IMG/VR virus record: IMGVR_UViG_3300044846_004136
Span: 1-31,259 of that record
Length of the DNA stretch: 31,259 nt
Direction: 5' to 3' (one strand)
Source: a virus
The stretch's first letter is position 1. Each line of letters opens with the position of its first letter. Both the position numbers and the translations under genes were made by a program. Shown piece after piece: positions 1 through 31,259 of this stretch. The notes below the pieces were generated by a model. It saw only the letters and a list, made by a program, of their open reading frames with translations, had not been told where the DNA came from and did not search any database.

Positions 1-12
1 TGGGTCATCCAC
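1..12. repeat. 12-bp terminal direct repeat, left copy (candidate cos)
   Basis: The first 12 bases, tgggtcatccac, are identical to the last 12 bases of the window. With the base preceding the right copy, the site holds a short inverted repeat, GTGG-gtcat-CCAC. It lies about 90 bases upstream of the terS-like gene and the operon encodes a lambda GpA-type large terminase, which is where a lambda-type phage has cos. Filled-in 12-base cohesive ends would produce exactly this duplication. An assembly overlap is the alternative. Confidence 0.6.
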
Positions 13-106
13 CACCGCCAAAAAACCAGCGTTTCCAAAAGTGGGCGGTCAGGAAAGCCACCAGCTGCCGGGGAAGCGCGCAGCCAAACCTAAGACAAGC
101 AAATGA
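1..106 (+). CDS. HTH protein, C-terminal part (continues from the right end)
   Basis: This is the end of the open frame that leaves the window at 31259. Joined with the 12-base overlap removed (31259 to 13) or kept (31259 to 1), the frame is preserved because 12 is a multiple of 3. It ends with TGA at 104-106. This tail is basic and rich in Lys, Pro and Ala, ending in PKTSK, and looks disordered. The stop overlaps the ATG of the next gene (ATGA), which suggests translational coupling to the terS-like gene. See the entry at 30625 for the N-terminal part. Confidence 0.6.
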   Translation, partial: GSSTTAKKPAFPKVGGQESHQLPGKRAAKPKTSK

Positions 107-687
107 CTCAGGCAGCTTTGGCAAAAGCCTTAGGCAAGTCAGTGGGCTATGTGTCCAAGCTGTGCCAGCAAGGTATGCCTAAGGAGCTTGAAGCTGCAAG
201 GGCTTGGCTTGATCTGCGTAAGGCTGGCAGGACGCGCAAGCTTGCTCCCTCAAAGCCTATGACAGCTGACGCAGCTGGAGCGCCTGAGCCTAGCGGCAGC
301 ACCATTGGTAGCCTGACTGCCGGGACAATCAGCACTGCCCTTGCACAGCATAAGGTGCTAGTGGATAGGGCGCGTGAAGTCTATGCAGCTAGCATTGAAG
401 CTAACGACCCAGCGCAGACCAAGCTAGCGCAGGCATACAGGCAAAGCTTCCTGCTGCTGCTGGAGATTGAAGCTGAGGAAAAGAAGCGCGCCTTAGAAGC
501 GCGTGACTACATCAGGCTTAGTGAAGCCTTGGAGATAATCACCCGGTGGACTTCCAAGGTTGTCAGTAGGCTTGATAAGCTGCCCTTGGACTGCGCGGAA
601 AGCTGCAACCCTGACCGCCCTGAGCTAGCCATTAAGATACTTGAGCGCTGGTCTAGAAGCGCGCGTGAAGACCTAGCCAACCCATAA
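103..687 (+). CDS. terS: Terminase small subunit-like DNA-binding protein
   Basis: This 194-aa protein begins directly with a helix-turn-helix (residues about 1-24, with ALAKALGKSVGYVSKL at its core). A Pro/Ala/Ser linker follows (about 45-75), then a mostly helical charged C-terminal half (about 80-190). Nu1-type small terminases have the same plan: an N-terminal DNA-recognition HTH, then helical assembly and TerL-binding regions. Its position at the head of the packaging operon and about 90 bases from the candidate cos supports the call. The ATG overlaps the preceding stop, and no upstream start in this frame is better. The assignment rests on context and architecture, not on a diagnostic motif, so another DNA-binding protein is possible. 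Confidence 0.6.
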   Translation: MTQAALAKALGKSVGYVSKLCQQGMPKELEAARAWLDLRKAGRTRKLAPSKPMTADAAGAPEPSGSTIGSLTAGTISTALAQHKVLVDRAREVYAASIEANDPAQTKLAQAYRQSFLLLLEIEAEEKKRALEARDYIRLSEALEIITRWTSKVVSRLDKLPLDCAESCNPDRPELAIKILERWSRSAREDLANP

Positions 688-692
688 GCCTT

Positions 693-1466
693 ATGAGTAA
701 ACCCATACGCATAGTCATAGCAGGTGATAGTCACGGAGATCAGTATGACCCAGAAGCTGTGGCTGCGCTGCTGGAATACTGTGACGATTACTTTAAGCCT
801 GACCTCAAGGTGCATCTAGGGGATGCGTTTGACCTGCGCGGGTTGCGCGCCGGGGCTAAGGATGTGGAAGCTAGGGAAAGCCTTAAGGAAGATGTGCGCT
901 GCGGACTTGCCCTGATGAAAGCTTACAGACCTCAGGTATACCTGCTGGGCAATCACGAGCGCAGGCTGTGGGATGCCACTGACAACATTGGTAGTGGTGA
1001 CCTAGCTGATTACTACCAAGGCGTTAAGGATGGGATTATGCGTGAAGTGCGTAAGGCAGGCGTAAAGAAGGTGCTGCCCTATCACGCAGATCAGGGAGTC
1101 TATGAAGTGGGCAAGGTTGCTATGGCTCACGGATACGCTCACGGCAAGGACGCTGTGATGAAGCAGGGAAGTCACTTCGCGCAGCGCGGGGGCGCGTTTG
1201 TGTGTGGTCATATCCACAGGCTTGAAATGGTTGCGCTTGAGAAGTGGCAAGGGGGCGCAGCTTTCAGCGCTGGTTGCCTGTGCCGTAAGGATATGGCTTA
1301 TAGCAGCCACAGGCTAGGCAGCTCCCGGTGGGGGTCAGGCTTCATAGCTGGGCTGATTGATGGGGATAACTTTAAGCTGTGGATGGTTCACAAGCTGGGC
1401 AAGTCCGGCAAGTGGGTTGCGCAGACTGACTTCAAACTACTCAAAGCAAGCCAATGGGAAGCCTAA
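693..1466 (+). CDS. Calcineurin-like metallophosphoesterase
   Basis: This 257-aa protein carries the complete dimetal phosphoesterase motif series: D12-x-H14 in GDSHGD, G42-D43-x-x-D46, G85-N86-H87-E88, H145 in MAHGYAHG, and G171-H172-x-H174. All metal-ligand positions of the family are present, so it should be an active phosphomonoesterase, phosphodiesterase or nuclease. The substrate cannot be read from sequence. It begins 5 bases after the terS-like stop in the context CCTTATG and overlaps the next gene by 13 bases, so it is embedded in the terminase operon. A role in DNA-end processing during packaging or in nucleotide metabolism is inference from position only. Confidence 0.9.
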   Translation: MSKPIRIVIAGDSHGDQYDPEAVAALLEYCDDYFKPDLKVHLGDAFDLRGLRAGAKDVEARESLKEDVRCGLALMKAYRPQVYLLGNHERRLWDATDNIGSGDLADYYQGVKDGIMREVRKAGVKKVLPYHADQGVYEVGKVAMAHGYAHGKDAVMKQGSHFAQRGGAFVCGHIHRLEMVALEKWQGGAAFSAGCLCRKDMAYSSHRLGSSRWGSGFIAGLIDGDNFKLWMVHKLGKSGKWVAQTDFKLLKASQWEA

Positions 1467-1951
1467 GCCAATCGTTAGATTTGCTGATGTGCGCGCTGCG
1501 CGGTCAGGACGGCAAGCCTAAGGGCTGGCTGGATGTTCACCAGCTGCGGGTGCTGTGGAAGATGCAGACATTAAGCGCAGCCAGCAACAGGGCTAAGCTC
1601 GTCTGGCAGCGTGGCTTCCTTGAGCGCAGGTCTTATCACCTGATCAGTGAGGCAGGGACTCATAGCTTAGCCTTTGCTTACAGACCACTTAAGCCCCTGA
1701 AGACTATGCAGCAAGTGGATGAAGCCTGCGCTAATGAGGGAGCTGAGAAGCCCCCGGCAGGCTGGATTTGCTGCGCTGAGTTTGCCGCCAAGTATGGTGT
1801 CAGTGTGCAGGCAGTGCATCAAATGACCTGCAGGCATAAGCTTAAGGTGCGCAGGTATAGGGTTAAGCGCGGGTTCAATGGGCTTAGGAATGTCATACAC
1901 TACCGGGATGCTGAGCTGCGCGCCCTGCACAAACTTAAGAAGCTCAAATGA
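1454..1951 (+). CDS. Winged-helix/HTH DNA-binding protein in terminase operon
   Basis: This 165-aa basic protein overlaps the phosphoesterase by 13 bases and the large terminase by 4 (ATGA). Residues about 103-137 (GWICCAEFAAKYGVSVQAVHQM followed by a basic KVRRYRVKR strand) look like a MerR/excisionase-type winged helix. Residues about 25-60 may hold a second helical DNA-binding unit. Its place immediately before terL is where small terminases often sit, so it competes with the gene at 103 for the TerS role, or the two work together. It could instead be a packaging-operon regulator. Confidence 0.6.
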   Translation: MGSLSQSLDLLMCALRGQDGKPKGWLDVHQLRVLWKMQTLSAASNRAKLVWQRGFLERRSYHLISEAGTHSLAFAYRPLKPLKTMQQVDEACANEGAEKPPAGWICCAEFAAKYGVSVQAVHQMTCRHKLKVRRYRVKRGFNGLRNVIHYRDAELRALHKLKKLK

Positions 1952-3768
1952 CAGATCAGGAACAGCAGCTTACTGACGCAGCTAGGGCTATCATCAGACC
2001 CAGCTACTCAGGTGACATTGTGGATTGGTGTGAGCAGAATGTGACTGAAGTGCCTGACAGCCCTATCAGGGGCAGGCTCAATCTGTCGCGCACACCTTGG
2101 GTGAGCGAGGCACTTAGGCTGGCTTCTGATCCTGAAACAAAGGTGCTATCAATCATAGCTTGCACACAGTCCGGCAAGTCCCTGTTTGCGCGCTTGTTCA
2201 CCTGCTGGGCAATCGTCAATTCCCCAGCTCATATGATGCTGCTGACCACTAACGATCCTGAAGCAAAGGATTGGATGCTACGCTATGTGCGTCCTTTGTT
2301 CAAGATGTGTCCACCTGTTGCCGCGCTTCTGTCTGATGAGGATAACGACAAAAGCACCACAGCTGACTTTAAGAATAATGTGACCCTATACTGCCGGGGC
2401 GCTTGGAATGAAAACAACCTACAGCGCCTGACACTAAGGCGCGTGATAATGGATGAGACTTGGCTCTATCCCAAGGGTCATATTGGGGAAGCTAGCGCGC
2501 GCACCCAGACCTTTAGCTGGATGGGTCAGGTGATCGCTATGAGTCAGGGCGCGTATGAAGGTGATGAAACCACCACCCTATTTAACAGCACTGACAAGCG
2601 TAGCTGGTGCTTTGCCTGTGTGAAATGTGGGGCAGTCCAGCCTTGGCTTTGGGATTATGTCAGGCTGCCGGAAACAGCTAAGCTTAATGGGGTCTGGGAC
2701 TTGAAGCAGGTAGAAGCAGGGACAACCTATGAGTGCGCGCACTGCCAGCATAGGATGCCTGACACACCCGGCAGCAGGGCTGAAGCCAATAGGATTGACC
2801 GGGGCGCAGGCTTCCGCGCTACCACCCAAAGCAGCAGCATTGGCAGTGTGGGTCTGCATTGGAATTGCCTAGCTAATAGCAGCTGGGGAAAAGAGGCAGT
2901 GAGTATGCTGCGCGCTAAGGAAGCCTATACCCTGTATGATGATAGTGAACAGCGCAGGGTCTGGAAGCAGAAGCGTTTGGCGCAGGCTTGGTCAGAGGAT
3001 GGTGGTGAGATAGCCAGCCAAGCTGAAGCTGGTGACTATGCCCTAGGTGATCCTTGGGACAAGGAAGCTTGGGTGACCCCTGACGCTAGGGTGCTGGACT
3101 TTGCTGCTGACCTGCCTGCCGGGAGTATCCCCTTCAGGACGCTGGCGGCAGATATGCAGCGTGGACATATGTGGGCTGAGGTAAGGAGCTGGTCAAAGTC
3201 TGGACATAGCAGGCTGCGCTGGTGGGGTAAGCTGGATACTTGGCAGCAGCTTGATGATCTGGCTGCTGAGCATAAAGTAAACAAAGCCTTTTGTGGGGTG
3301 GACTGTGGTGACCAGACCCAAGAGGTATATGCCCAGACTGCGCTGCGCGGGTGGAAGTCCCTAAGGGGTAGCGGTCAAACTGACTTCACTGTGCAGGATG
3401 CAGGGGGCAAAAGCACCAAGCGCTTTTATTCAGACAAGCAATTTGTCTTTATCCCCGGTCAAAGGAACAGGGCTGAAATGATTGTTTGGAGCAACCTGCA
3501 AGCTAAGGATATGCTGGCGGGTCTGCAGAAGCGCAGGCTGCATACATACGGCAGGAATGTCCCTGACGATTATACCCAGCAGCTTACAAGTGAGATAAGG
3601 GTAAAGGATGCGCGCTCAGGGAAAGCCCATTGGATACTGCCCAGCAATAAGACCTGCGGCAATCACGCTTGGGATTGTGCGCTAATGGGTCTGATCCTAG
3701 CTGTGCGCTGGGGCATCATAGGCAGGGAAGCTACTGAAACTGCAGTGCCTACCCAGCCAGCTGAATGA
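1948..3768 (+). CDS. terL: Terminase large subunit, GpA family
   Basis: This 606-aa protein is the ATP-driven DNA-packaging motor and endonuclease. It has an N-terminal ATPase with Walker A CTQSGKS (72-78) and Walker B RRVIMDE (164-170). A zinc knuckle C224-x2-C227/C263-x2-C266 follows, as in lambda gpA relatives. The C-terminal nuclease has the acidic positions typical of GpA: D402 in AADMQR, D452 in VDCGDQTQEVY, and an Asp in NHAWDCAL near 576. Length matches lambda gpA (641 aa) slightly shortened. GpA-family enzymes generally cut at cos sites, which fits the 12-base terminal repeat. The gene overlaps its upstream neighbour by 4 bases. Confidence 0.95.
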   Translation: MTDQEQQLTDAARAIIRPSYSGDIVDWCEQNVTEVPDSPIRGRLNLSRTPWVSEALRLASDPETKVLSIIACTQSGKSLFARLFTCWAIVNSPAHMMLLTTNDPEAKDWMLRYVRPLFKMCPPVAALLSDEDNDKSTTADFKNNVTLYCRGAWNENNLQRLTLRRVIMDETWLYPKGHIGEASARTQTFSWMGQVIAMSQGAYEGDETTTLFNSTDKRSWCFACVKCGAVQPWLWDYVRLPETAKLNGVWDLKQVEAGTTYECAHCQHRMPDTPGSRAEANRIDRGAGFRATTQSSSIGSVGLHWNCLANSSWGKEAVSMLRAKEAYTLYDDSEQRRVWKQKRLAQAWSEDGGEIASQAEAGDYALGDPWDKEAWVTPDARVLDFAADLPAGSIPFRTLAADMQRGHMWAEVRSWSKSGHSRLRWWGKLDTWQQLDDLAAEHKVNKAFCGVDCGDQTQEVYAQTALRGWKSLRGSGQTDFTVQDAGGKSTKRFYSDKQFVFIPGQRNRAEMIVWSNLQAKDMLAGLQKRRLHTYGRNVPDDYTQQLTSEIRVKDARSGKAHWILPSNKTCGNHAWDCALMGLILAVRWGIIGREATETAVPTQPAE

Positions 3769-4153: not shown

Positions 4154-5677
4154 ATGCCCAAAGCACAGCCCCACAAGCGCACCAAGTCCGGCAGCGTCAG
4201 TAAGAAGACACTGAAGCAGGCTGGTGCTAGTCAGTTTAACAGCGTCAGCTGGTCTAACAATCGCGCCCAGATTTACGGCACTGCCGTAGATTTCAGCGCG
4301 GACTATACCCCCACTGACCGGGTGGAGATGATGAAGCGCCTGCGCTATGGTGAGCGCAACTGCGGTCTGGTGCGTCAAATCCTTGGGGACTATGTGACAT
4401 ATGTGGTGGGCAGTGATGGTATCACCCACCAAAGCCACTGCGCTGATACTGCCAAGGCTACTGCCTATGATGAATACTTTGCTGATTGGTGCAGGAGCTG
4501 CGATCTGACCGGGCGCTTTAGCTGGGCAGAAGTGCAGCGCATCACAGTCAGGGGCGCGCTGCGTGATGGTGATAGCTATGCACTTAAGGTGTTTGACGCT
4601 GAAGGGCGCGCCAAGCTGCAGCTGGTGGAAGCTCACCGGGTTGCTAACCCTGAAGGTGAGCAAGTGCCTAAGGGTATGCTTGATGGTGTGCAGTTTGACA
4701 AGGTGGGGCGTATTGTGGGCTATTCAGTTATTCTTGGTGACAAGACAGCCAAGCTGATCCCTGCGCCTTCTGTCTGCCATATTGCTGAGCAGGATTATTG
4801 CAGCGGCAGCCGGGGACTCCCCTTGCTTCAGCATAGCTGGTCGGATATTCAAACGGAAGACGAGCTGCTTAAGCTGGAAGCCCTCGCAGTCCGTAATGAC
4901 TCAGATTTTACTAGGGTGTTGGTCAAGCAAGGTGGGTATGTTCCTAACAACCTAGCTGCTGAATTGTCCGGCACTAACTCTAACGGCAGCAACCTTGCTA
5001 GCCAAATGGGTGGTAAGCTGGCTGTGCTTGAACCCGGTGAGGATTTAAAATCCATACAGTCAAACAGACCCAGCCCTGTGTTTGTGGGCTTCCTTGAAGC
5101 TATCCAGCGCGACATAGCGCGCGGCACAGGTTTGCCGTATGAGTTTAGCGGCAACCCTTCACAGGCAGGGGGCGGGGCGCTGCGTTTGATTGCCGCCAAA
5201 GCTGATAGATCGTTTGCGCGCTGGCAGACCATCACTATTGAGCGCCTATGCACACCCGCTTGGGGCTTTGTGATTGGCACTGCTATTGCCAATGGTGAGC
5301 TGCCTGACTCCCCTGATTGGAATAAGGTCAGCTGGACTACACCCAAGCGCTTGACCATTGATGCTGGCAGAGACGCTGCGCAGGATCGCGCTGACCTTGA
5401 AATGGGATTGCTCAGCCCTAGCGAGCTATACCAGCAGAGGGGGCTTGACCTTCGCACTGAAGTCCAGAAGCGCGCTAAGGACTTCCGTTATATTATTGAT
5501 ACGGCAGAAAAGGAAGGCGTGCCGCTTTGGATGCTATACAAACCGGGCTTCAATTGGCTGCAGCAGGGGCAGGGGAAACCCACAGCTACTGAAGTGCAGC
5601 TTGCCGGGGAAGACCCGCTTGCAGGTATTCCTCAGCCTGAAGCTGAGCCTGAAGCTGAAGACGAAACCAACACCTAA
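4154..5677 (+). CDS. Portal protein, lambda gpB family
   Basis: This 507-aa protein has the length of lambda gpB (533 aa) and sits directly before an S49 protease, as B precedes C. Family-like features include an N-terminal basic segment, RLRYGERNCGLVRQILGDYVTYVVG (near 70-95), a stretch around GALRDGDSYAL, and the loop GTGLPYEFSGNPSQAGGGALRLI. The last is highly characteristic of lambda-type portals. It forms the dodecameric vertex for DNA entry and head-tail attachment. The start follows CCTTTATG with no Shine-Dalgarno sequence. The Glu/Pro-rich end (PEAEPEAEDETNT) looks disordered. Confidence 0.93.
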   Translation: MPKAQPHKRTKSGSVSKKTLKQAGASQFNSVSWSNNRAQIYGTAVDFSADYTPTDRVEMMKRLRYGERNCGLVRQILGDYVTYVVGSDGITHQSHCADTAKATAYDEYFADWCRSCDLTGRFSWAEVQRITVRGALRDGDSYALKVFDAEGRAKLQLVEAHRVANPEGEQVPKGMLDGVQFDKVGRIVGYSVILGDKTAKLIPAPSVCHIAEQDYCSGSRGLPLLQHSWSDIQTEDELLKLEALAVRNDSDFTRVLVKQGGYVPNNLAAELSGTNSNGSNLASQMGGKLAVLEPGEDLKSIQSNRPSPVFVGFLEAIQRDIARGTGLPYEFSGNPSQAGGGALRLIAAKADRSFARWQTITIERLCTPAWGFVIGTAIANGELPDSPDWNKVSWTTPKRLTIDAGRDAAQDRADLEMGLLSPSELYQQRGLDLRTEVQKRAKDFRYIIDTAEKEGVPLWMLYKPGFNWLQQGQGKPTATEVQLAGEDPLAGIPQPEAEPEAEDETNT

Positions 5678-5689
5678 CCTTTACACCCT

Positions 5690-6532
5690 ATGCGCAACCT
5701 CATCAAAGCTATCAGCGCTGGTAAGCCATTCCTTGTGGACTACCAAGTTGCTGAGCAATACCTGCAGCTTAAGAAGTCTGCCGGGATCACTGACCTTATC
5801 ACCCAGCTGTTTGGTGAAGCCCCTAAGCCCTACCAGACACAGGGCGGCACTTATGTCATTCCAATTACCGGGATGATTGCCAAGGGACTCAGCCCCTTTG
5901 AAGCCATTGGCGCAACTGACATTGATAAGCTGGATGACCAGATTGATGAAGCGCTGGCTGCTAACCCCAAGCGCATCCTTTTCCATATCAATTCTGATGG
6001 TGGCACTATTGATGGTGTGGAGGAAATCGCTGAGAAAATCCGCGCGCTGCCTGTTGAAACTATTGCCTATACTTCTGGCAGTATGAACAGTGCTGCCTTC
6101 TGGATCGGTAGTGCTAGTGACCGGGTGGTTGCATCAGCCAGCAGCAGTGTGGGGGCGATTGGCGTATACAGCGTAAGCACTGATTTGTCTGAGCAGGCTA
6201 AGGCTATGGGCATCAAGGTTAAGGTCTTCCGTAATTCCTCCAGCCCCTTCAAAGGAATGGGTGTGGCTGGGACTTCCCTGACTGATGAGCAGGAAGCCCT
6301 GACCCAAGCTGAAGTAGATAAGGCTGGGGACACCTTTAAGCAGGCTGTCCTGCAGAAGCGTAAGCTTGCTAAGCCTGAGGATATGCAGGGGCAGGCTTTG
6401 TCTGGTAAGGACGCAGCTGCGCGCAACCTGATCACCGGGCTAGCCCCCACCCTTAAGGTGCTACTTACCCAGCTGGAAGGGCAGTCATATGCTGCCGGAA
6501 GCCAGACAGCCAAGGTTGCCAAAGCCAAGTGA
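5690..6532 (+). CDS. Prohead S49 serine protease (ClpP/SppA fold)
   Basis: This 280-aa protein belongs to the SppA/lambda gpC family. Core motifs are IPITGMIAKG (58-66), FHINSDGG (98-105), SGSMNSAAFWIGSASDRVVA (129-148) with the probable nucleophile S134, and SSVGAIGVY (152-160). The likely catalytic Lys is K188, in a downstream VFRNSSSPFKGMG segment. Phage members cleave scaffold and portal or coat termini during prohead maturation. Unlike lambda gpC (439 aa) it is only the protease part. The scaffold-like protein is encoded as a separate downstream gene rather than as an internal Nu3-type start. Confidence 0.92.
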   Translation: MRNLIKAISAGKPFLVDYQVAEQYLQLKKSAGITDLITQLFGEAPKPYQTQGGTYVIPITGMIAKGLSPFEAIGATDIDKLDDQIDEALAANPKRILFHINSDGGTIDGVEEIAEKIRALPVETIAYTSGSMNSAAFWIGSASDRVVASASSSVGAIGVYSVSTDLSEQAKAMGIKVKVFRNSSSPFKGMGVAGTSLTDEQEALTQAEVDKAGDTFKQAVLQKRKLAKPEDMQGQALSGKDAAARNLITGLAPTLKVLLTQLEGQSYAAGSQTAKVAKAK

Positions 6533-6559
6533 GCTTTTGACTCCAGACGCATAAGCAGA

Positions 6560-7021
6560 ATGGAAACCAAATCTCTTACCATTGAAGACCAGCTTGCTGC
6601 TTCCAAGGCTATCCTTGGTGCTGTGCAGGCTGAGAAGGCTGAGCTGCAGGGCGCGTTTGAAACCCTTGCTGCTGAGAAGATGGCTGCGCTTGCTGAAGTG
6701 ACTAAGGTTGCTGAAGGCAATAAGCAGACAGTGGAAGCCCTTGAGCAGAAGCTTGCCGGGTTTGAAGCTGAGAAGGCTGAGCTGCAGAAGCAGCTTGCTG
6801 AAGCCCTTGCCCATCAGGTCAGCGCTTCCAAGGAAGCTGCCAAGATTGCTTCTAGCGTTGGTATCTCCCCGGTTGCCGTCAGCCCTTCTGACGATCTCAG
6901 CGCTACACAGGCTAAGCCTAGCGCTGATGAAATCCGTAAGACCTTCCTTGGTATGAAGCCCGGCGCTGAGCGTCAGGCTTTCTTCCGTCAGCACCTTGCT
7001 GTGCTGACTGCCACTAAATAA
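6560..7021 (+). CDS. Capsid scaffolding-like coiled-coil protein
   Basis: This 153-aa protein lies between the prohead protease and the major capsid gene. Residues about 15-100 form an Ala/Glu/Lys/Leu-rich coiled coil with recurring AEKAELQ blocks. An Ala/Ser/Pro linker follows (about 100-118), then a basic amphipathic C-terminus (about 120-153, KTFLGMKPGAERQAFFRQHL). A helical rod with a basic, coat-binding C-terminal segment is the usual plan of dsDNA phage scaffolds. It would guide shell assembly and then be removed by the protease. Sequence alone does not identify the family, and a decoration protein is less likely because of the coiled coil. Confidence 0.65.
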   Translation: METKSLTIEDQLAASKAILGAVQAEKAELQGAFETLAAEKMAALAEVTKVAEGNKQTVEALEQKLAGFEAEKAELQKQLAEALAHQVSASKEAAKIASSVGISPVAVSPSDDLSATQAKPSADEIRKTFLGMKPGAERQAFFRQHLAVLTATK

Positions 7022-7052
7022 TTTTTCCCTCTAACCCTAATATATTAATCCT

Positions 7053-7925
7053 ATGTCGATCGCTGCTGCTCCCGCTGTTCTTGCTGAACAGGTGCTTGCT
7101 GGTCTTAAGGGACGCCTTGGTGTCCTTTCTGCCTTCTCCACAAACCTCACCCCTACTGCTGTCGGTAAGACTATGCAGGTCAGCCTTATTGGTGGTGGCT
7201 CTGCCAAGGTCTTTTCTAAGGCTGCTGGTGGTTATCACGAAGCTGAAGAAGCTTCCCTGACTTCCCAGACAGTCACGCTTGTCCACCTGCACAGCACCAA
7301 GGACTTTGCTCCTGATGATCTGGCTGAGTATGGTGAAGCCTATATGATTAACGCCTTTGTTCCGCAGGCTGTTAATGAGCTGGTTGCTGAGTGCCACAAG
7401 CGCATTGGTAATCTTTTCACTGTCGCTAACTACAGCGCTGGTGAAGTGATCACTGCCGCTAACTTCAACTACTCTCAAGTGGTTGACCTTAACACTGACC
7501 TTTCGATTGCCAAGGCTTCTGACGCTCGCGCGCTGCTCCTTAACAGCACCTATGCTGGCGCTCTCCGCAAGGACGCTACGCTGGTTGCTCCCTTCAATGG
7601 CGCTGGTCAGTCTGCTGCTATCGTTCAGACAGGTGTTATTGGCACTGTGTCTAACTTTGGTGTTTATGAGTTCACTGACCTTCCGGGTAACTCTGAAGGA
7701 TTGGCGGGCATTGCGCTGGGTCAGGATGCGGTCTGCGTGGCTATGGCGCTGCCTAATGCTTCTATGTTCCCCGGTGAAGTCTCCACTGCTTCTGATGCCT
7801 CTGGTATCTCTGTGCAGGTGCTGAAGTCTCAGGGCACTGATGGCATTGTGCGCCTGTCTGCCGCTATCCGCTTTGGTGTCGGTAAGGGTCGCGCTTCCTC
7901 GGCTAAGCGTATCTGCAGCGCCTGA
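7053..7925 (+). CDS. Major capsid protein (HK97-like fold expected)
   Basis: This 290-aa protein is assigned as major coat from its position after protease and scaffold, its length, and its mixed alpha/beta composition. Features include an N-terminal helix (PAVLAEQVLAGLKGRLG), a long spine-like helix around LAEYGEAYMINAFVPQAVNELVAECHKRIG, and a Gly/Ala-rich A-domain-like C-terminal half. Codons differ from neighbouring genes (many TCT, GCT, GGT and CTT; few AGC), as expected of the most highly translated gene. An AT-rich leader (taatatattaatcctATG) precedes the start. A terminator follows 20 bases after the stop. Confidence 0.85.
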   Translation: MSIAAAPAVLAEQVLAGLKGRLGVLSAFSTNLTPTAVGKTMQVSLIGGGSAKVFSKAAGGYHEAEEASLTSQTVTLVHLHSTKDFAPDDLAEYGEAYMINAFVPQAVNELVAECHKRIGNLFTVANYSAGEVITAANFNYSQVVDLNTDLSIAKASDARALLLNSTYAGALRKDATLVAPFNGAGQSAAIVQTGVIGTVSNFGVYEFTDLPGNSEGLAGIALGQDAVCVAMALPNASMFPGEVSTASDASGISVQVLKSQGTDGIVRLSAAIRFGVGKGRASSAKRICSA

Positions 7926-7946
7926 GTCTAGCGCTCAGCTCAGATC

Positions 7947-7978
7947 AAGCTCACCTTGGAAACAGGGTGGGCTTTTTT
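7947..7978 (+). terminator. Rho-independent terminator after major capsid gene
   Basis: AAGCTCACC (7947-7955) pairs with GGTGGGCTT (7966-7974), including one G-U pair, across a 10-base loop. A run of six T residues follows at 7973-7978. It would end or attenuate transcripts after the capsid gene, so downstream tail genes would be read through at a lower level or have their own promoter. Confidence 0.85.
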
Positions 7979-8099
7979 GTGCCTGTGCGCCTTGGCTAGC
8001 TTGGTTGGTATCAGGGTAGCACCCACCCCCGGCAAAGCCTGCCACAGCCAAGCCAGACCCCTAGGACAGCCTGCCCTGCTTGTCAGTCCCGGCAATAGT

Positions 8100-8429
8100 A
8101 TGGACAGCAACCTTGCAGCTATGTGGCTAGCTGACGCGCAGGCTATCTGCGCTGAGGCAGGGCAGACAGTCACCATCAATAGCGTAAGCTATGCAGCTAT
8201 GGCTAGTGACCCCACCCTTACCCCCAGCCTTGAGCAAGGGGGTCTAATGGATAAGATCACTACGCTAATCAAAGTGCCAGCTACCACAGCTGCCCTAGCT
8301 GCCAAGTCCCATATGCAACCCGGCAAGCGCCTGACCTTTGATGCGCGCCCCTACCGGGTCACAGCCTTCACTTACAAACCCGGCAGTGCTTGGCTGCAAA
8401 TGCAGTGTCAGGACGCTGACCAGCGCTAA
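8100..8429 (+). CDS. Head-tail joining protein (FII-like candidate)
   Basis: This 109-aa protein is the first gene after the capsid terminator, where lambda encodes its FI/FII joining proteins (FII is 117 aa). It begins with helical MDSNLAAMWLADAQAICAEAG and continues as a beta-rich domain that ends with RPYRVTAFTYKPGSAWLQMQC. Such a beta fold after a short helix fits the gpFII/gp17-type head-completion family, but I see no diagnostic motif. The frame is open further upstream to 7956, but those TTG/GTG starts lie inside the terminator hairpin and encode an implausible Pro/Ser segment. ATG 8100 is therefore preferred. It ends in a TAATG overlap with the next gene. Confidence 0.55.
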   Translation: MDSNLAAMWLADAQAICAEAGQTVTINSVSYAAMASDPTLTPSLEQGGLMDKITTLIKVPATTAALAAKSHMQPGKRLTFDARPYRVTAFTYKPGSAWLQMQCQDADQR

Positions 8430-9379
8430 TGGCTGATATAGTCATTAAGGTTAACAGGACTTTAGCTGCTACGCTGGTTAAGTCCTTTAATGACTTTGGC
8501 GCATACACCCGGCAGCTGACTGAAGACCTTGTGAAAGAGGAAGGCGCGCTGACCTGCCGTGAAGCTATCAACCACAGCCCCCCGCTTGATGGTGATGCCG
8601 GGGGCAAGGGTGATAAAAAGGTTGCTGAGCGCTGGGGTAATTGGGCTGTGGCTAATGACATTTTAACCATTGTGACTGAAGACAGCAAAAGCGCTGCCAC
8701 TGCTGTAAATGCCAAGTCTGGTGCTTTTGAAAAGTATGTTGCTTGGCGGCAGGGAAAGCCCCCCAAGTCTAGTGGTATCATAATGAAGCTGTGGCAGGAT
8801 CAGGATGTGCGGCGCTCATTTGCGCGCGCTAAAGTCCTGCTGCGTAAGTTTAACGGATCGCGCAACCATCAGGTGCTTAATGAGCCTAGCCTAGAAGCGC
8901 GGCACAATCGCATTAGGGGGCTGTATAAAGGACGCATCAGGAAGACCAGCAACGGCAAGCAGTTGATGGGTGCTAGTGAAAGCTACGCTTTTGCCCCGGT
9001 AAAAGTAATTAAGGACTATATCAAGAAACGGCAGAAGCGCGTTGGCTGGATGAAAGCTGGCTGGGTTGCTGCTATCCATAAGATTGGTAAACCTAAGATT
9101 AACGGAATGGACAAAGCCTTTGGCTTGCGGAAGCTGCCAACTTGGATCACGCGCCATAACGCAAACCACGGATTTGTAGGTCTGAACAAATACCAGACTA
9201 TGAGCAATAATGTGATGATGACTGTGCGTAATGATCTAGGGGACATTTTTGGCGTTGGCTACCTAGCCGGGACTAGGCGCTATGTTATGGGTGCGCGCGC
9301 TGGTAAGCTGCAGCGCAGGCTCAATCACTTTATGCGCATAGCCATTGAAAAGGCTAACAAAGCCCAGAAGCCTACCTAA
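8429..9379 (+). CDS. Neck/tail-completion protein, unassigned (Z position)
   Basis: This 316-aa, strongly basic protein starts in a TAATG overlap with its upstream neighbour and precedes the tail terminator-like gene, the place of lambda Z (192 aa). Features include an N-terminal helix with acidic EDLVKEEGAL, a region WGNWAVANDILTIV resembling tail-completion proteins, and then a Lys/Arg/Trp-rich half (DYIKKRQKRVGWMKAGWVAAI). The C-terminus (LQRRLNHFMRIAIEKANKA) is helical. It is longer than usual HK97 gp10/Z proteins. I infer a role in neck or tail completion from context and cannot assign a family. Confidence 0.5.
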   Translation: MADIVIKVNRTLAATLVKSFNDFGAYTRQLTEDLVKEEGALTCREAINHSPPLDGDAGGKGDKKVAERWGNWAVANDILTIVTEDSKSAATAVNAKSGAFEKYVAWRQGKPPKSSGIIMKLWQDQDVRRSFARAKVLLRKFNGSRNHQVLNEPSLEARHNRIRGLYKGRIRKTSNGKQLMGASESYAFAPVKVIKDYIKKRQKRVGWMKAGWVAAIHKIGKPKINGMDKAFGLRKLPTWITRHNANHGFVGLNKYQTMSNNVMMTVRNDLGDIFGVGYLAGTRRYVMGARAGKLQRRLNHFMRIAIEKANKAQKPT

Positions 9380-9384
9380 CCTTT

Positions 9385-9819
9385 ATGAGTATCAAAAGCC
9401 CCCTAAGCATTATTGAAGACGCGCTTGCCGCCAAGCTCACAGCTGAGACTTCCCTTGCTGCCTACCATATCAATAATGGTGAGACAGCTGAGGAGCTGCA
9501 GCTACCCAGCATTGTGGTTGCCTGTGAGTCTGCCAGCTACCCCACAGGGTTTGCCCAAGGTCTAGGAAACTATAACTGCCAAGTCAGCATTGGGGTCTTT
9601 ACCCAGATTGATGACACCCCCCGCGCTACCCACCGGGCTGCTGTTCAGGATGTGCTAGGCAGCTTGTCTGATCTGCCGGGGCTTAAGGCTGTGTTCACAG
9701 CTCAGGGTGATGCCAGCTGCTATGACATTACCCTGACCGGGCTGCAGGAAGGGCGCGGGGAAAGGTGCTTTGACAGCACCCTTACCTTTGAAGTCCTTAT
9801 TGTCCTGAGCGCTGTTTGA
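9385..9819 (+). CDS. Tail terminator-like protein (gpU-like)
   Basis: This 144-aa protein has an N-terminal helix (PLSIIEDALAAKLTAE), then alternating strands (PSIVVACESASY, NYNCQVSIGVFTQI). A helix (THRAAVQDVLGSL) and two final strands (CYDITLTGLQEGR, CFDSTLTFEVLIVLSAV) complete it. This alpha/beta order and length match lambda gpU/HK97 gp10-type tail terminators, which form a hexameric ring capping the tail tube. It precedes a small beta protein and the tape-measure region, as expected. The start follows CCTTTATG without a Shine-Dalgarno sequence. Confidence 0.65.
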   Translation: MSIKSPLSIIEDALAAKLTAETSLAAYHINNGETAEELQLPSIVVACESASYPTGFAQGLGNYNCQVSIGVFTQIDDTPRATHRAAVQDVLGSLSDLPGLKAVFTAQGDASCYDITLTGLQEGRGERCFDSTLTFEVLIVLSAV

Positions 9820-9866
9820 CTTGGGCTGCATTGGTAAACCTTCCTCACCCTTAACCCTATACCACA

Positions 9867-10211
9867 GTGGCAACTACGCAGAAGGGCACAGCCCATATTT
9901 ACGGCATCAATGGCACTATCACCGGGCTGACAATTCAAAGCTACTCTGTAGGCAAGTCCTTTGCTAACGCTGATGAAGTCACTAACGCTGCGGGTGTGGT
10001 GATTGGTGTGCGCTACTCTGATGAGCGCACCACCCTTTCTGCTGAAGGTCTAGTGCCTTCCAGCTACACAGCGAACATTGGTGACAACCTTACCTTCACA
10101 GGTAATGGCATTGCTTTCTCTGGGCATATTCAGTCCATTGAGGAGCGCGGTGAAGCCAAGGGCTATATGCGTATTAGCATCACAGCCATTGATTATGAAG
10201 GTATTTCCTAA
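9867..10211 (+). CDS. Tail tube-like protein (candidate major tail protein)
   Basis: This 114-aa beta-rich protein starts at GTG in the context ccacaGTGGCA. Strands such as GTAHIYGINGTITGLTIQSYSV, ERTTLSAEGLV and MRISITAIDY fit a tail-tube beta-sandwich. Its position between the tail terminator and the chaperone/tape-measure genes is the standard one for the tube protein. It is smaller than most tube proteins (lambda gpV is 246 aa), similar to a gpV N-domain alone. If it is not the tube, then one of the unassigned proteins at 12176 or 12897 would have to be. Confidence 0.5.
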   Translation: MATTQKGTAHIYGINGTITGLTIQSYSVGKSFANADEVTNAAGVVIGVRYSDERTTLSAEGLVPSSYTANIGDNLTFTGNGIAFSGHIQSIEERGEAKGYMRISITAIDYEGIS

Positions 10212-10260
10212 GCGCTGAGCTTAGCTTTGCTTTCACCAGAAGCGCTGGCAGCCTAAGGTT

Positions 10261-10845
10261 ATGGCTGACCAGCGCTTTCTTTCTGCCTTCCTTACGCCTG
10301 CCGTCACAGTAATCCTAGGCAAAAGGCTCAAGCCCTTCTGCCTCCGGCACAGGCTTTTCCTTGAAGGCATAGGGAGTCCCTTCCTGCAGGATCAGACTGA
10401 GCTGACAGCAGCTGACTTAATTGTGGCGCTGAAGGTCTGCGCTGATGAGCGCATTGACCAGCCCACCCTTGGGGACAAGTGGCTTAACCTTAAGCTCACA
10501 CTGTCAAAGCCTTTGCTGGCTAGGGGGTGTGCCGCGCTCATCAAACATATAGACCGGGCTGACTCATACCCAAAGTTTTGGGAAAGAAAGGACAGACGAT
10601 CAGGCGCGGCAAGCACAGTGCCTTGGGAGCTTTCAGTTGCCTGCAACCTGATGAGGAATGGGGTGAGCTATCAGGACGCTTTCAATATGCCTGAGGCAAA
10701 GGCTTTTTGGCTATCTGCTGCCTTCAGTATCCAGCAGGGAAGTAAGCTGGAGTTTATCAGCACTGATGATGAAGACCTGATTGCCCAGCTTACCCAGATT
10801 GACCAATCGGCAAAAGTAGAAGCCAACCCTAAACCCACCCCTTAA
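10261..10845 (+). CDS. Tail assembly chaperone-like protein
   Basis: This 194-aa, mostly helical protein lies directly upstream of the tape-measure gene, the usual place of tail assembly chaperones that coat the tape measure before tube growth. It contains an N-terminal FLTPAVTVILGKRLKPFCLRHRLFLEG segment, typical of proteins listing pre-assembly substrates for phage tails, and central helices including WELSVACNLMRNGVSYQDAFNMPEAKAFWLSAAF. I looked for the usual -1 slippery sequence near the 3' end and saw none. Only a single form seems to be made. Confidence 0.55.
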   Translation: MADQRFLSAFLTPAVTVILGKRLKPFCLRHRLFLEGIGSPFLQDQTELTAADLIVALKVCADERIDQPTLGDKWLNLKLTLSKPLLARGCAALIKHIDRADSYPKFWERKDRRSGAASTVPWELSVACNLMRNGVSYQDAFNMPEAKAFWLSAAFSIQQGSKLEFISTDDEDLIAQLTQIDQSAKVEANPKPTP

Positions 10846-10847
10846 CA

Positions 10848-12176: not shown

Positions 12177-12895
12177 TGACTAAACTAATTAAAAAAGGTG
12201 CTGGGGCTTCCGGCAATTCCTTGGAGCTTCAGCCTGATTGGACTATTGAGAATGATGGCTTTGGGCTGCTCACTTCCAAGCTGACCTTTAAATGTGATAA
12301 AGGTAGCGCTGGTGCGAAAGCCCCCAAGTCAGGTGACGCGCACCCGGAAGACGGCAGGCTTAAGTGTCACCGATCCAGCTACAGTATCAGCAGGGGTGGA
12401 TGGGCTGTGATAACCTCAGACTATGTGGGGATTTCCACAGGTGAGCGCACCACTATCCAGATTAAGGGTGATGTGGTTACCGGGACGCAGCCAATCCAAG
12501 TGCATAAGGATTTCCTTAAAGTGCTTAAGCCTTTGGGCTGGGACACAGCTACGCAGTCCTTTCCTGAGACTAAAGACCTTGCCGTTAAAAATGGGCTGGT
12601 GGGGGTTAAATCTTTCCTGATCGCTGACAGCTCAGTTAGCGCTTCCTTCTATGTAGCCAATAAGTCAGTGGTGCAGGATGGGGTCAATATGGTGGGTAAG
12701 ACCTTCCTGACTATGCCCGGTATGGAAGATGTGGTGCTGCCTAAGGGTAATGCAGGTATGACTGAGTTTCACGACAGATACGCTATGCTTACCGGGCTTA
12801 ACTATGAGAAGTATGCCCACCTATACAAAGTAAGCTTTACCATTAGGATTAGCCCCGGTGGTTACCATAACAAGGTCTATACCAAATCTAACTAA
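12176..12895 (+). CDS. Tail protein of unknown type, 239 aa
   Basis: The start is a TAATG overlap with the tape-measure stop, so the two are probably translationally coupled. The protein is beta-rich and contains two isolated cysteines (FKCDKG, LKCHRSSYSI) and a run of strands from about residue 60 to 100 (YSISRGGWAVITSDYVGI...). The C-terminus (HLYKVSFTIRISPGGYHNKV) also looks like strand pairs. A gene here normally encodes a minor or distal tail protein that starts tube assembly. I recognise no family. Confidence 0.5.
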   Translation: MTKLIKKGAGASGNSLELQPDWTIENDGFGLLTSKLTFKCDKGSAGAKAPKSGDAHPEDGRLKCHRSSYSISRGGWAVITSDYVGISTGERTTIQIKGDVVTGTQPIQVHKDFLKVLKPLGWDTATQSFPETKDLAVKNGLVGVKSFLIADSSVSASFYVANKSVVQDGVNMVGKTFLTMPGMEDVVLPKGNAGMTEFHDRYAMLTGLNYEKYAHLYKVSFTIRISPGGYHNKVYTKSN

Positions 12896-12896
12896 G

Positions 12897-23573: not shown

Positions 23574-23645
23574 GCACCTGTAGCACAATGGTTGTGCGCC
23601 TGTTTTGTAAACAGGGGGCTGTCGGTTCAAATCCGACCGGGTGCT
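23574..23645 (+). tRNA. trnT(ugu): tRNA-Thr (anticodon UGU)
   Basis: A full cloverleaf can be drawn: acceptor GCACCTG/CGGGTGC (6 Watson-Crick pairs and one G-U), D arm GCAC-aatggtt-GTGC, anticodon stem CCTGT/ACAGG with loop TTTGTAA. The variable loop is GGGCT, and the T arm is GTCGG-TTCAAAT-CCGAC. The anticodon TGT decodes ACA. The discriminator is T and no CCA is encoded. It lies in a 108-base gap between coding regions and is the only tRNA I find. ACA is used in the phage genes alongside ACC and ACT. Confidence 0.95.
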
Positions 23646-27501: not shown

Positions 27502-27713
27502 AAACTAAACTGCCCCAGCCTTCTGGACTCAGGTGCAGGGTTGAACCTGCCAAGCAGTATGACCGCGCCCTAGTGATCAAGTCAGGCAGGCTTGCGTATG
27601 ACTTTGATAAGCTGGTTAGCGTGACTAGGCGCGTGTATAAGCTCAGCCCGGAAGACGCGCGGGATTGGGTGGAATATAATATTTGCAACCTCCCTAACAT
27701 CAAACTGCACTAA
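27498..27713 (+). CDS. Small basic protein B of a tandem paralogous pair, 71 aa
   Basis: It starts in an ATGA overlap with protein A. Shared positions are YD-x-ALV, GRL-x-YD, KLVS and T-x-R, and the middle helix diverges (SPEDARDWVEYNICNL against QPKAQRYVREHFRHN). Protein B is less basic. The pair could be subunits of a small complex, perhaps linked to the ssDNA-binding candidate upstream or the methyltransferase downstream. Nothing in either shows the function. Confidence 0.6.
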   Translation: MKTKLPQPSGLRCRVEPAKQYDRALVIKSGRLAYDFDKLVSVTRRVYKLSPEDARDWVEYNICNLPNIKLH

Positions 27714-27779
27714 CCCAGACAAACCCATTGACACAAGGCTGCCTGACCCCCAGCCCTAGTCACCCAATACATACCCGCT

Positions 27780-28766
27780 ATGACAATGCGCTACCTTTCT
27801 ACCTTCAGTGGCATAGAAGCTGCCTCAGTTGCTTGGCACGATCTAGGCTTTGAAGCTGTAGGCTTTTCTGAGATCAATCCTTTCGCATCAGCAGTGCTTG
27901 CTGCGCGCTTTCCCAAAACCCGAAACTATGGAGACATTACCAAACACGCCAGCTGGGGACTCAAACCCGGCTCAACTGACATTCTCATTGGTGGAAGCCC
28001 CTGCCAATCATTCAGTATCTGCGGCAAAAAACTTGGGTTCGCCGATCCAAGGGGCAACCTTACCCTTGTCTTTCTCCAGCTCATTGAACAGCTGCGCCCG
28101 CAGTGGGTGGTCTGGGAAAATGTCCCAAACTGTCTTTCAACAAACGGCGGCAGGGACTTTGGAAGCTTCCTGCACCAGCTGGTCAGCAGTGGGTATGGCT
28201 GCTGCTGGAGAGTTTTGGACGCTAGACACCAAGGAAGCCCTAGACCCCTGCCCCAGCGCCGCAGGCGCGTTTACCTTATCGCAAACCTTACAAGCATCCA
28301 ACATTCCGCAGAAGTGCTTTTTAAGCCCCAAGCTATGCCGGGAGATGCTGACGCGCTCAGCAGCATTGGGGAAGACACTGCCGCCCACGCTCAAGGAAGC
28401 CCTTACCCTGATTGCCAGCCAGACCTGAAGATGGTTGGTTTTCAGATTGGCAACCTGAGACGGCGCGCAGGTGCTACGCCTGATGACAGGTTTATTACCT
28501 GCCTCAAGTCCAGCACCGGGGATCAGACCCCCTGCGTAGCCTATGACGGCAAGGCGCGCCACCTGACTAGCGTAGAATGGGAAAGGCTGCAGGGCTTCCC
28601 TGACAATCATACCCAAATCCCTTGGAAGGGTAAGCCAGCTGAGGAATGTCCTGACCACCTGCGCCAGATTGCCTGTGGTAATTCTATGGCTGTGCCAATT
28701 ATCAGGATGCTGGGTGAGCGTATCAAAGCTGTCCACACTGCCCACAATCTGAACAGCCACCTATGA
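27780..28766 (+). CDS. DNA (cytosine-5) methyltransferase
   Basis: This 328-aa enzyme has the C5-methyltransferase motif order: motif I FSGIEAASVAW (9-19), motif IV G-G-S-P-C75-Q-S with catalytic C75, motif VI E113-N-V115, motif VIII Q159-R-R-R-R163-V-Y-L-I-A, motif IX/X G-N-S-M-A-V-P near 308-314. All are intact. It transfers a methyl group from SAM to cytosine in a specific site. The target recognition region (about 165-290) gives no visible clue to specificity. No restriction enzyme is adjacent, so it is an orphan, likely protecting phage DNA. ATG 27780 is preferred; ATG 27786 (MRYLSTFSG) is an equal alternative. Confidence 0.95.
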   Translation: MTMRYLSTFSGIEAASVAWHDLGFEAVGFSEINPFASAVLAARFPKTRNYGDITKHASWGLKPGSTDILIGGSPCQSFSICGKKLGFADPRGNLTLVFLQLIEQLRPQWVVWENVPNCLSTNGGRDFGSFLHQLVSSGYGCCWRVLDARHQGSPRPLPQRRRRVYLIANLTSIQHSAEVLFKPQAMPGDADALSSIGEDTAAHAQGSPYPDCQPDLKMVGFQIGNLRRRAGATPDDRFITCLKSSTGDQTPCVAYDGKARHLTSVEWERLQGFPDNHTQIPWKGKPAEECPDHLRQIACGNSMAVPIIRMLGERIKAVHTAHNLNSHL

Positions 28767-30088
28767 CCAACCTACCTAGCCCCGGTCACAACCTACCCTG
28801 TGACTTGGATGCTGAAAGGACTGTGCTTGCCTCAATCCTTGTGGACAGCGCGCAGGACAAGCCAACGCTGACCAGCTGCCTCAAGGCAGACCTTCAGCCT
28901 TCTGACTTCCTTGAGCCTAAGCACCAGCTGATCTACCTTGCCTGCCAGAAGGTAGCTGAGGAAGGCGCGCTGCCTGATGAGCTGGCAGTAGCTGACAAGC
29001 TGCGCACCACCCTGCAGCTGGATATGGCTGGGGGTGTCCCTTACATAAATGAGCTGACCGGGAAGCTGTTTGCCCCTTCCCCTAATGTGTCCAAGGCAGT
29101 CACGATCATTAAGGACAAGCTCAGCCTGCGCAGGCTCATCTACGCATCTAAGGAGCTGCACACAAAGGCACAGTCAGGCATCTTTAGCCCAGCTGAGCTA
29201 GCAGCCAGCTTCCAAGCTAGCACCAAGCTCATCCTTGAGTCCGGCAAGCGCTCAGAAACCACACAGCGTATGGAGCTGGATGAGCTGTGTAGCTTTGACC
29301 GATTTAATGACCCCAATACCCTAGTGGGTAAGCGCTGGCTGTGCAAAGGTGGTAGCCTGCTATTCTCAGGGCAGGCAGGCGCGGGGAAGTCTACCCTACT
29401 GACTCAGCTGTGCATCAGCTGGGCGCTTGGGCGTGACCTGTGGGGTATGAAGCCTGTGCGCCCCCTGCGTATGCTGATCCTGCAAAGTGAGAATGATGGC
29501 GGGGACTTAGGGGAGCAGCTTCAGGACTGCCTCAAGGCTATGCAGCTCAGCCCCACTGACAATCAGCTGCTGCGTGAGCGCGTCTTTATCTACCGGGAAG
29601 CTGTGAAGACCGGGGAAGCCTTTGGCGCGCTGCTGGAAGACCTGATTACTACCCACCAGATTGACTGCGCAGTGGTTGACCCCCTTCTAGGCTTCAGTGG
29701 TGGGGACATATCCAAGCAGGACTTCTGCAGCCACTTCCTGCGGCATATCCTGCAGCCTATCCTGATGCGCACCGGGTGCTGCCTCATAGCTGGTCACCAC
29801 CAGAATAAGCCCCCCAGAAAGAAGGAAGACCAGAGCAGTATGCTTAGCACCTATGACTTTACCGGGAGCAGTGAGTTAGCCAATTGGTTTAGAAGCACAG
29901 CCATTTTGAGAAGGGAAGACCCTGAGCTGCCACACTTCGTCTTTAAGCTAGGCAAGCGCGGCAGCAGGGCAGGGATGAAGGACAAGCAGGGTAACTTTAC
30001 TGAGTCACTACGGATCAGGCACAGCAAGGTTAGGGGTGAAATCAAGTGGGAGATTAATGACCTGCCGCCCCCTTCTGAGGAAGTCTGA
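28763..30088 (+). CDS. Replicative helicase/loader (DnaB-N domain + RecA-type ATPase)
   Basis: Residues about 12-125 (DLDAERTVLASILVDS..., DFLEPKHQLIYLACQKV, GVPYINELTG) resemble the N-terminal domain of DnaB helicases. After a linker, Walker A G203-QAGAGKS-T211 and Walker B DCAVVD (301-306) mark a RecA-type ATPase that resembles AAA_25/RepA-like proteins more than DnaB itself. A later GHHQNKP and SSELANWFRSTAIL also match the AAA_25 type. At 441 aa it should be a hexameric helicase or helicase loader driving replication. No primase motif is present. It begins in an ATGA overlap with the methyltransferase. Confidence 0.85.
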   Translation: MTNLPSPGHNLPCDLDAERTVLASILVDSAQDKPTLTSCLKADLQPSDFLEPKHQLIYLACQKVAEEGALPDELAVADKLRTTLQLDMAGGVPYINELTGKLFAPSPNVSKAVTIIKDKLSLRRLIYASKELHTKAQSGIFSPAELAASFQASTKLILESGKRSETTQRMELDELCSFDRFNDPNTLVGKRWLCKGGSLLFSGQAGAGKSTLLTQLCISWALGRDLWGMKPVRPLRMLILQSENDGGDLGEQLQDCLKAMQLSPTDNQLLRERVFIYREAVKTGEAFGALLEDLITTHQIDCAVVDPLLGFSGGDISKQDFCSHFLRHILQPILMRTGCCLIAGHHQNKPPRKKEDQSSMLSTYDFTGSSELANWFRSTAILRREDPELPHFVFKLGKRGSRAGMKDKQGNFTESLRIRHSKVRGEIKWEINDLPPPSEEV

Positions 30089-30120
30089 GCGCTCAGCTTA
30101 ACCCCTTGAGCTTGCCCCCT

Positions 30121-30249
30121 ATGCACACCCCTTACCAGACCCGGCACAGACCTAATACCCTAAAGGGTATTATAGGGGGCTATACCCCCTGCTTAATCGC
30201 TGACGCTAGCAGGGGATGCCACCCCCTATCCCATCCCCACACCCCTTAA
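30121..30249 (+). CDS. Doubtful 42-aa small ORF in a structured intergenic region
   Basis: ATG 30121 follows ccccct, which is the phage's usual start context, and the frame ends at TAA 30247-30249. The product (MHTPYQTRHRPNTLKGIIGG..., ending PLSHPHTP) is His/Pro/Gly-rich. The same 130 bases contain several perfect inverted repeats, which argues that the DNA or RNA structure is the conserved feature. Listed because it fills the gap; more likely noncoding. Confidence 0.25.
   Translation: MHTPYQTRHRPNTLKGIIGGYTPCLIADASRGCHPLSHPHTP
30153..30228. other. Cluster of perfect inverted repeats (origin or structured RNA candidate)
   Basis: TAATACCC (30153-30160) and GGGTATTA (30165-30172) form an 8-bp perfect stem with a TAAA loop. 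Next, TAGGGGG (30173-30179) pairs with CCCCCTA (30222-30228). Inside it CCCCTGCT (30186-30193) pairs with AGCAGGGG (30208-30215) around a 14-base loop. AGGGGG/CCCCCT (30174-30179 and 30185-30190) is an alternative local stem. The cluster follows the helicase and precedes the HTH/terminase genes. No U-run follows, so it is not a simple terminator. A replication origin or a regulatory RNA fold is plausible. Confidence 0.6.
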
Positions 30250-30260
30250 GCGTAGATCAT

Positions 30261-30593
30261 ATGGCTAAGAAGACTAGAAGACATTGGCAGAAGCTGCAGC
30301 ATTGGGCTAAGCAGTGGAAGACTAAGCCAGAAGCTATGCGCGCTAACCTAAGCACCCTGATTGCCTCTAGGAAGGCTTTGAAGGCTCAGAAGGTGTCAAG
30401 GGTAGGGCAGATAGTCCAAAGCCTGCCTGAAGCCTTCCCAGCTAGCCTAAGCAGGCAGCTGATGGGTGAAGCCCTGAAGACTGCCGGGGCTGAGCCTACC
30501 CCTGCCAGACTCAAGCGCCTAAGGGTGTATGCAGTCAGGTATGGCTTCCTAAGGTTTGATAACCTGACTAAACGCTGGAACAAAGTCCCTTGA
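30261..30593 (+). CDS. Small basic DNA-binding-like protein, 110 aa
   Basis: I chose ATG 30261 (context gatcatATGGCT); the frame is open upstream to 30216 but the added segment is Pro/Ser-rich and overlaps the inverted-repeat cluster. The protein is strongly basic (MAKKTRRHWQKLQHWAKQWKTK) with helices (RVGQIVQSLPEAFPASLSRQLMGEALKTAGAEPTPARLKRLRVYAVRYGF). The pattern SLSRQLMGEALKTAG...RLKRLRVYAVRYG resembles a helix-turn-helix plus wing. It probably binds DNA and may regulate the following HTH gene and the packaging operon. No known family is recognised. Confidence 0.55.
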   Translation: MAKKTRRHWQKLQHWAKQWKTKPEAMRANLSTLIASRKALKAQKVSRVGQIVQSLPEAFPASLSRQLMGEALKTAGAEPTPARLKRLRVYAVRYGFLRFDNLTKRWNKVP

Positions 30594-30624
30594 GTTTGCC
30601 AGATTGTGTATAAGTCTGGGGACA

Positions 30625-31259
30625 GTGGCAGCTGATCCAACCAAGCGCAGGACTAAGGAACACCTACAGCAGCTGCGTGATGCTGAGGGAAGACCTGAGG
30701 AAGCTGAGTTTGATAGCTGGTTTGATAGTCTGCCTAAGGCTAAGCAGGCTGAGTATAGGGCGCTTGACCCACCTGTTATCCCTTACCGGGAGCTGCCACT
30801 GCCTAGGTATAGCTTCCCTGTTTATGATCAGGATGCTAAGTTTGCTACGGCAGACCCTAGGCGCGCTGAAGACCAGACCACTTCTATTGACGATACTTGG
30901 GTGACCAAGGAAAGGGTGCAGGAGATTATATCTGATGTGCTAGCTATGCTTGGCGCATCACCTGACAAGGCAGTGCAGCATCATTTTGATTTGGTGCGTA
31001 TAATTCTGCAGACCACTGATGCCCCTACACAGGTAGATTTGGCTAAGCGTATGGGACTGACCAAGCAGGCTGTGAGCTTTCGAGCTAAGAAGCTGATCCA
31101 TCACGCTAGCAGCATAGCACCGGGCTTGCTTGAGCGTATGAAAAGCCCTGAAAATGTTAGCGCGCAGCTCCAATCTGATAATAAAATTATAAACGCTGAG
31201 CAGGTGGGGTCACTAAGAAATCTATTCACACCCACCCCCGCAGCGCGTGGGTCATCCAC
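30625..31259 (+). CDS. HTH protein spanning the genome junction (5' part)
   Basis: GTG 30625, in the context ggacaGTGGCA, starts a frame with no stop to the window end. It continues at the left end to TGA 104-106, giving about 242 aa with the 12-base repeat counted once. Residues about 134-158 (TQVDLAKRMGLTKQAVSFRAKKLI) are a clear helix-turn-helix of the sigma-region-4/regulator kind. Upstream is an acidic region (about 18-50) and a helix (ERVQEIISDVLAMLG). The C-terminal tail is basic. If the 12 bases are cos, packaging cleavage splits this gene, and an intact copy exists only in circular or concatemeric DNA. A GTG start in a similar context occurs at 9867. Confidence 0.7.
   Translation, partial: MAADPTKRRTKEHLQQLRDAEGRPEEAEFDSWFDSLPKAKQAEYRALDPPVIPYRELPLPRYSFPVYDQDAKFATADPRRAEDQTTSIDDTWVTKERVQEIISDVLAMLGASPDKAVQHHFDLVRIILQTTDAPTQVDLAKRMGLTKQAVSFRAKKLIHHASSIAPGLLERMKSPENVSAQLQSDNKIINAEQVGSLRNLFTPTPAARGSS
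31248..31259. repeat. 12-bp terminal direct repeat, right copy (candidate cos)
   Basis: tgggtcatccac is identical to bases 1-12 and is preceded here by g, making GTGG-gtcat-CCAC. Both copies lie within the reading frame of the junction-spanning HTH gene, and the frame stays open whichever copy is removed. A length of exactly 12 matches lambda-type cohesive ends and not the common assembler overlap sizes. Confidence 0.6.

Follow-up and report, generated by a model that had tools for sequence, protein, structure and literature searches.

Complete loss of at least eleven restriction-site-like words from an uncultured phage genome, in a family whose missing-word sets differ among relatives

The DNA analyzed here (31,259 bp in all, hereafter the window) is a viral sequence whose ends are identical over 12 bases (1-12 and 31248-31259) and whose gene spacing across these ends is that found in a relative, G001. 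Both features suggest that the phage genome, circularly permuted and about 31,247 bp long, is present in full, so that the preliminary description of this DNA could fairly speak of absences from a whole genome; GGCC, CATG, GTAC and ACGT are also lacking at the joined end junction. The features needed below are the following:

1..31259, no strand: whole genome, eleven words absent (GGCC, CATG, GTAC, ACGT, CCWGG, GGWCC, GGNNCC, GAWTC, ACTGG, RCCGGY, GRGCYC)
1948..3768, + strand: large terminase (PHROG 15, E 2e-43), used to find relatives and to place them in a tree
4154..5677, + strand: portal protein (PHROG 21, E 3e-46), used for relatives and for the host lead
23574-23645, + strand: tRNA-Thr (TGT), a phage gene
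27780..28766, + strand: C5 cytosine methyltransferase (Pfam PF00145, E 6e-51), an accessory gene
28763..30088, + strand: DnaB-like helicase, adjoining the methyltransferase and marking its insertion point relative to G001
7056..7059, no strand: TCGA, copy 1 of 4 (the others start at 7503, 13907 and 31080)

Genes for a small terminase, a head protease, a major head protein, a holin-like protein, an ATP-dependent ligase, an Erf-like annealing protein and an exonuclease VIII-like protein were recognized in the window too. Its 42 predicted genes stop with TAA (25) or TGA (17) and never with TAG, though CTAG is present.

Counts over the whole window bore out the absence of the four words: each has 0 copies, for a composition-only expectation of 164 (GGCC) or 121 (CATG, GTAC and ACGT alike). 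As a refutation test, we ran 100 codon-preserving shuffles, in which synonymous codons were permuted while every protein and the codon usage were retained, and the claim withstood it, since the shuffled sequences contained on average 128.1 GGCC (sd 9.3), 59.0 CATG (6.1), 62.1 GTAC (5.9) and 39.6 ACGT (4.7), with minima of 108, 43, 50 and 27, respectively. Observed counts are therefore far under both the composition- and the codon-controlled expectation. That no ATG start is preceded by C, which had also been pointed out, is a direct outcome of the CATG zero and not independent evidence.

The purge is wider than had been seen before, with at least 11 words wholly gone from the window. Further zeros were found for CCWGG (0 observed/105 expected), GGNNCC (0/97), ACTGG (0/61), GGWCC (0/41), RCCGGY (0/33), GAWTC (0/32) and GRGCYC (0/21), and, when overlapping words are counted once, about 640 sites are missing, or about one per 50 bases. 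Ten of the eleven words are known Type II sites, and ACTGG is a Type IIS site; the number of words is not a number of enzymes, since words overlap. Several absences have sharp, enzyme-like edges between W and S: CCWGG is at zero whereas CCSGG is not purged, GGWCC is at zero, and GAWTC is at zero, yet the full GANTC count is 34. A stricter test (palindromic words of 4-6 letters, both strands, at most 5% of an order-2 Markov expectation) returned 16 purged words in the window, against none in any of 20 sequences simulated with its trinucleotide content. When 12-kb cuts were compared by this test, the window slice had 15 purged words, and 65 other phage contigs, a non-random sample reached via methyltransferase and portal searches, had 1 at the median and never more than 14. 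ACSGT, YCGCGR, GYCGRC and CGWCG were also listed as purged, and these either match no enzyme that we can name or are an outcome of CGA scarcity. In 12 kb, three unrelated phage contigs from the C5 methyltransferase search (L048, L041 and L042) showed 12-14 purged palindromic words, so that purges this extreme are not confined to one phage group.

Other words of the window had been described as rare or extremely common, and here the earlier picture held in part. TCGA is indeed rare, with exactly 4 copies, but a maximal-order Markov model predicts just 2.6, so that no specific avoidance of this word is seen. The trinucleotides CGA and TCG are far fewer than expected (108 vs 391) whatever the context; TCGA sits at its expectation once this is considered and was ruled out as a target of its own. 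AGCT (444 vs 277) and GCGC (414 vs 224) are enriched as stated, but CTAG (131 vs 106) only slightly.

Relatives were gathered by terminase, portal and helicase searches and are contigs from many metagenomes, most of them fragments. The near relatives, which come from independent metagenomes (clade A), add 153,667 bases, in which only 3 GGCC, 1 CATG, 0 GTAC and 0 ACGT were found. More distant relatives, at about 60-70% identity in terminase and portal and with a matching gene order, have word sets that differ in an on/off manner. In clade B (G003-G007 and G009), GGCC and CCWGG are at or above expectation, and its members differ from one another, one or another lacking GCGC, CTAG or CATG. CCGG is missing in G015 and G019, AGCT is missing in G027 and G031, and ATAT is missing in G022, where some ACGT is retained. 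GTAC is absent from all genomes of the family in which its expectation was usable, and GGNNCC and ACTGG are gone or nearly so family-wide, less cleanly in the outgroup G021/G023. High-G+C, more distant portal relatives show few purges. On the terminase tree, at least 3 changes of state are needed for GGCC, 4 for CTAG, 2-3 for GCGC and 2 for CATG; these are minimum numbers on a single gene tree of relatives that share ancestry, on which the direction of any given switch would be a matter of reconstruction.

CpG is scarce in clade B and in the L114 group, where CG is at 0.16-0.24 and TA at 0.34-0.63 of expectation and TG/CA is in excess; the contigs concerned are L101 (G003), L103/L104 (G005), L105 (G006), L257/L258 (G015) and L259/L260 (G019). 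In clade B, the remaining CpG is concentrated in CCGG, and in the L114 group in GCGC; CpG is normal in G027 and G031.

Aligned relatives indicate how sites were lost. Between G008 and the window, each of the 8 ACTGG differences in aligned codons leaves the amino acids unchanged and is thus synonymous. Between the window and clade B, the fraction of sites with the same amino acids is 0.26-0.45, about what a protein identity of 61-64% predicts (this comparison with chance is an estimate), so that purging appears to have proceeded without visible cost to the protein sequence. Leftover sites are clustered: 10 of the 11 ACTGG copies of G008 lie at 4932-13268, which is 26% of the genome (P ~1e-5), and in G005 two CATG and one GGTTCC lie within 7295-7423. 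Such patches may be newly recombined DNA that has yet to be purged. An N6/N4 methyltransferase gene is located at 7741-8883 of L107 (G008), inside the 4932-13268 stretch, a position that suggests one recombinant segment.

Phage C5 methyltransferases that protect their own genome are known from the Bacillus SPbeta type, and the window encodes a C5 methyltransferase as these phages do; here, however, it is an accessory gene whose absence leaves the purge unchanged. In G001, whose large terminase is 99.5% identical to that of the window, there is no space for a methyltransferase upstream of the helicase, and 0 of 283 palindromic words distinguish the two genomes, so that the word profile does not depend on the gene. 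G001 and the window share most of their sequence, and the comparison shows that the methyltransferase is dispensable for the purge rather than providing an independent replicate. A full-length C5 gene is present in just two of 38 related records, the window and L018, and G008 carries its N6/N4 methyltransferase in place of it. The window enzyme aligns to the solved enzymes M.HhaI and M.HaeIII only across the catalytic part, and its nearest named relative is that of Pseudanabaena phage Pan4 (51%), a phage nearly free of purging, which therefore gives no host lead. Several relatives have a C5-methyltransferase-like protein of about 212 aa (ASPPCT...FFFIENPRGMLR) upstream of the exonuclease VIII-like gene:

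L218 1222-1860, - strand: small C5-methyltransferase-like protein
L219 1015-1656, + strand: small C5-methyltransferase-like protein

What could have removed so many words? We consider it highly probable that the missing words result from selection by one host, or a succession of hosts, equipped with uncommonly many Type II restriction enzymes; at least eleven Type II-like specificities, sharp W-versus-S edges and on/off differences among relatives all argue for several enzymes as the agent. The preliminary description had proposed selection by several enzymes, which stands as the best explanation, and had tied it to the C5 methyltransferase of the phage, a link to which the same absences in the near-identical G001, where the gene is lacking, lend no support. 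The phage methyltransferase itself might have set the word content, methylated words being kept and the rest purged; in favor of this, kept words such as GCGC, AGCT and CCGG are enriched, and some members do have methyltransferases, but the full-length C5 gene is found in 2 of 38 records, the profile of G001 is indistinguishable without it, and most purged relatives, though many are fragments, have no recognizable methyltransferase, making this origin very improbable. Such a methyltransferase "amnesty", by which the kept words would be those that the phage methylates, was rejected given the identical profile of G001 and the rarity of the gene among relatives. Sites could also have been lost when methylated bases mutated, as in the deamination of methylcytosine, without any cutting of unmethylated DNA; this would fit the TG/CA excess that comes with CpG scarcity in clade B and in the L114 group. 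Even so, CATG, GTAC and GAWTC are completely lost too, and, were a mutation bias the only force, some sites should still be present in the 185 kb of clade A, so that we judge such a process very improbable as the cause of the purge.

We give next to no credence to base composition, di- or trinucleotide bias or codon usage as a source of the absences: strong CGA/TCG depletion does account for TCGA, and a strong dinucleotide bias runs across the family, but the main words never came near zero in codon-preserving shuffles or order-2 Markov simulations. Just as little weight falls on an assembly or library artifact, for although all the sequences are metagenome assemblies, the same words are absent in several independent data sets and kept in related contigs, and reading frames are intact. 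Selection by restriction enzymes does not, on its own, account for the extremely low CpG of some relatives, for which mutation, host composition or a further defense may be the source.

That phages avoid Type II recognition sites is established as a general phenomenon (Rusinov et al. 2018, PMC6286503), and the window resembles that pattern in its near-complete elimination of Type II sites beyond composition, but differs from it in lacking at least 11 words in one small genome and in belonging to a family in which the set varies among relatives of about 60-70% identity. Under the stricter test in 30 kb, Anabaena phage A-4L (KF356198) has 10 purged words and Microcystis phage Mic1 (MN013189) has 11. 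A-4L lacks GATC, GGCC and GGWCC, three specificities documented in Anabaena PCC 7120 (PMC4390886), and this match calibrates the inference from many missing Type II words to many enzymes; the genera reported to have most systems per genome include Microcystis, Helicobacter and Neisseria (PMC8262939). A-4L and Mic1 are both phages of cyanobacteria rich in restriction-modification systems and share with the window the purge of GGCC, GGWCC and GRGCYC, to which A-4L adds GAWTC and CYCGRG, and Mic1 adds CCWGG. They are nevertheless unrelated to the window phage, keep GTAC and ACGT and purge GATC, whereas the window keeps GATC and has 16 purged words.

Verrucomicrobia phage P8625 (KP792622), which is described as a Puniceicoccales phage, and Akkermansia phage Moulinsart (ON453896) are among the nearest named phages. 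Their genomes (31-33 kb) have the terminase, portal and Clp-like protease order of the window, with portal E-values of 6e-12 and 8e-17, respectively, and P8625 lacks GTAC and GGWCC as the window does. Although head-gene order is common to them and terminase and portal are homologous, protein identity to the window is only about 22-25%, and these phages of verrucomicrobial hosts have only 3-4 purged words. Portal relatives located on bacterial genome contigs carry Verrucomicrobiota titles in 7 of 8 cases, and all of them lie outside the strongly purged clades. Against 373 Opitutales genomes, the initial 20 kb of the window yielded weak homology only, with no convincing spacer-like match, and a megablast of positions 1-25,000 against plasmids and named phages gave no match. 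Self-depletion in about 45 Opitutales genome samples revealed no genome that fits the purge set of the window: some samples avoid GGCC, GTAC and CCWGG, but CTAG as well and not CATG. A search for RE_NgoBV, the GGNNCC enzyme family, was uninformative, since no genome matched, controls included. With neither a spacer-like match nor a fitting genome among these Opitutales, no cognate enzyme was seen for the missing words, and Verrucomicrobiota serves as a lead for the family at large rather than as a host assignment for the window phage.

Selection by restriction enzymes could have worked as follows. A double-stranded DNA phage would replicate in a host, or in a succession of hosts, with unusually many Type II restriction-modification systems, and its unmethylated DNA would be cut at the recognition words. 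Mutants losing a site, often without any change in protein, would survive more often, until all sites of at least 11 specificities were gone. Whenever a lineage met a new enzyme set, the matching word would be purged or become free to return, leaving each relative with a set of its own. The window falls within a known phenomenon, of which it is an extreme instance, and its family is one whose sets change fast. One could further imagine, although we find it rather unlikely, that purge sets and CpG scarcity together record a host defense hitting CpG broadly save for methylation-protected words, with the family changing hosts by swapping its safe words.

The missing words are probably a record of which defense enzymes the host of each virus has, so that those of an uncultured phage become readable as a list of the restriction enzymes that it survived. 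With a family whose members differ so cleanly, host assignment and defense turnover could be tested from sequence only, and one could ask how fast a phage purges the sites of a new enzyme.
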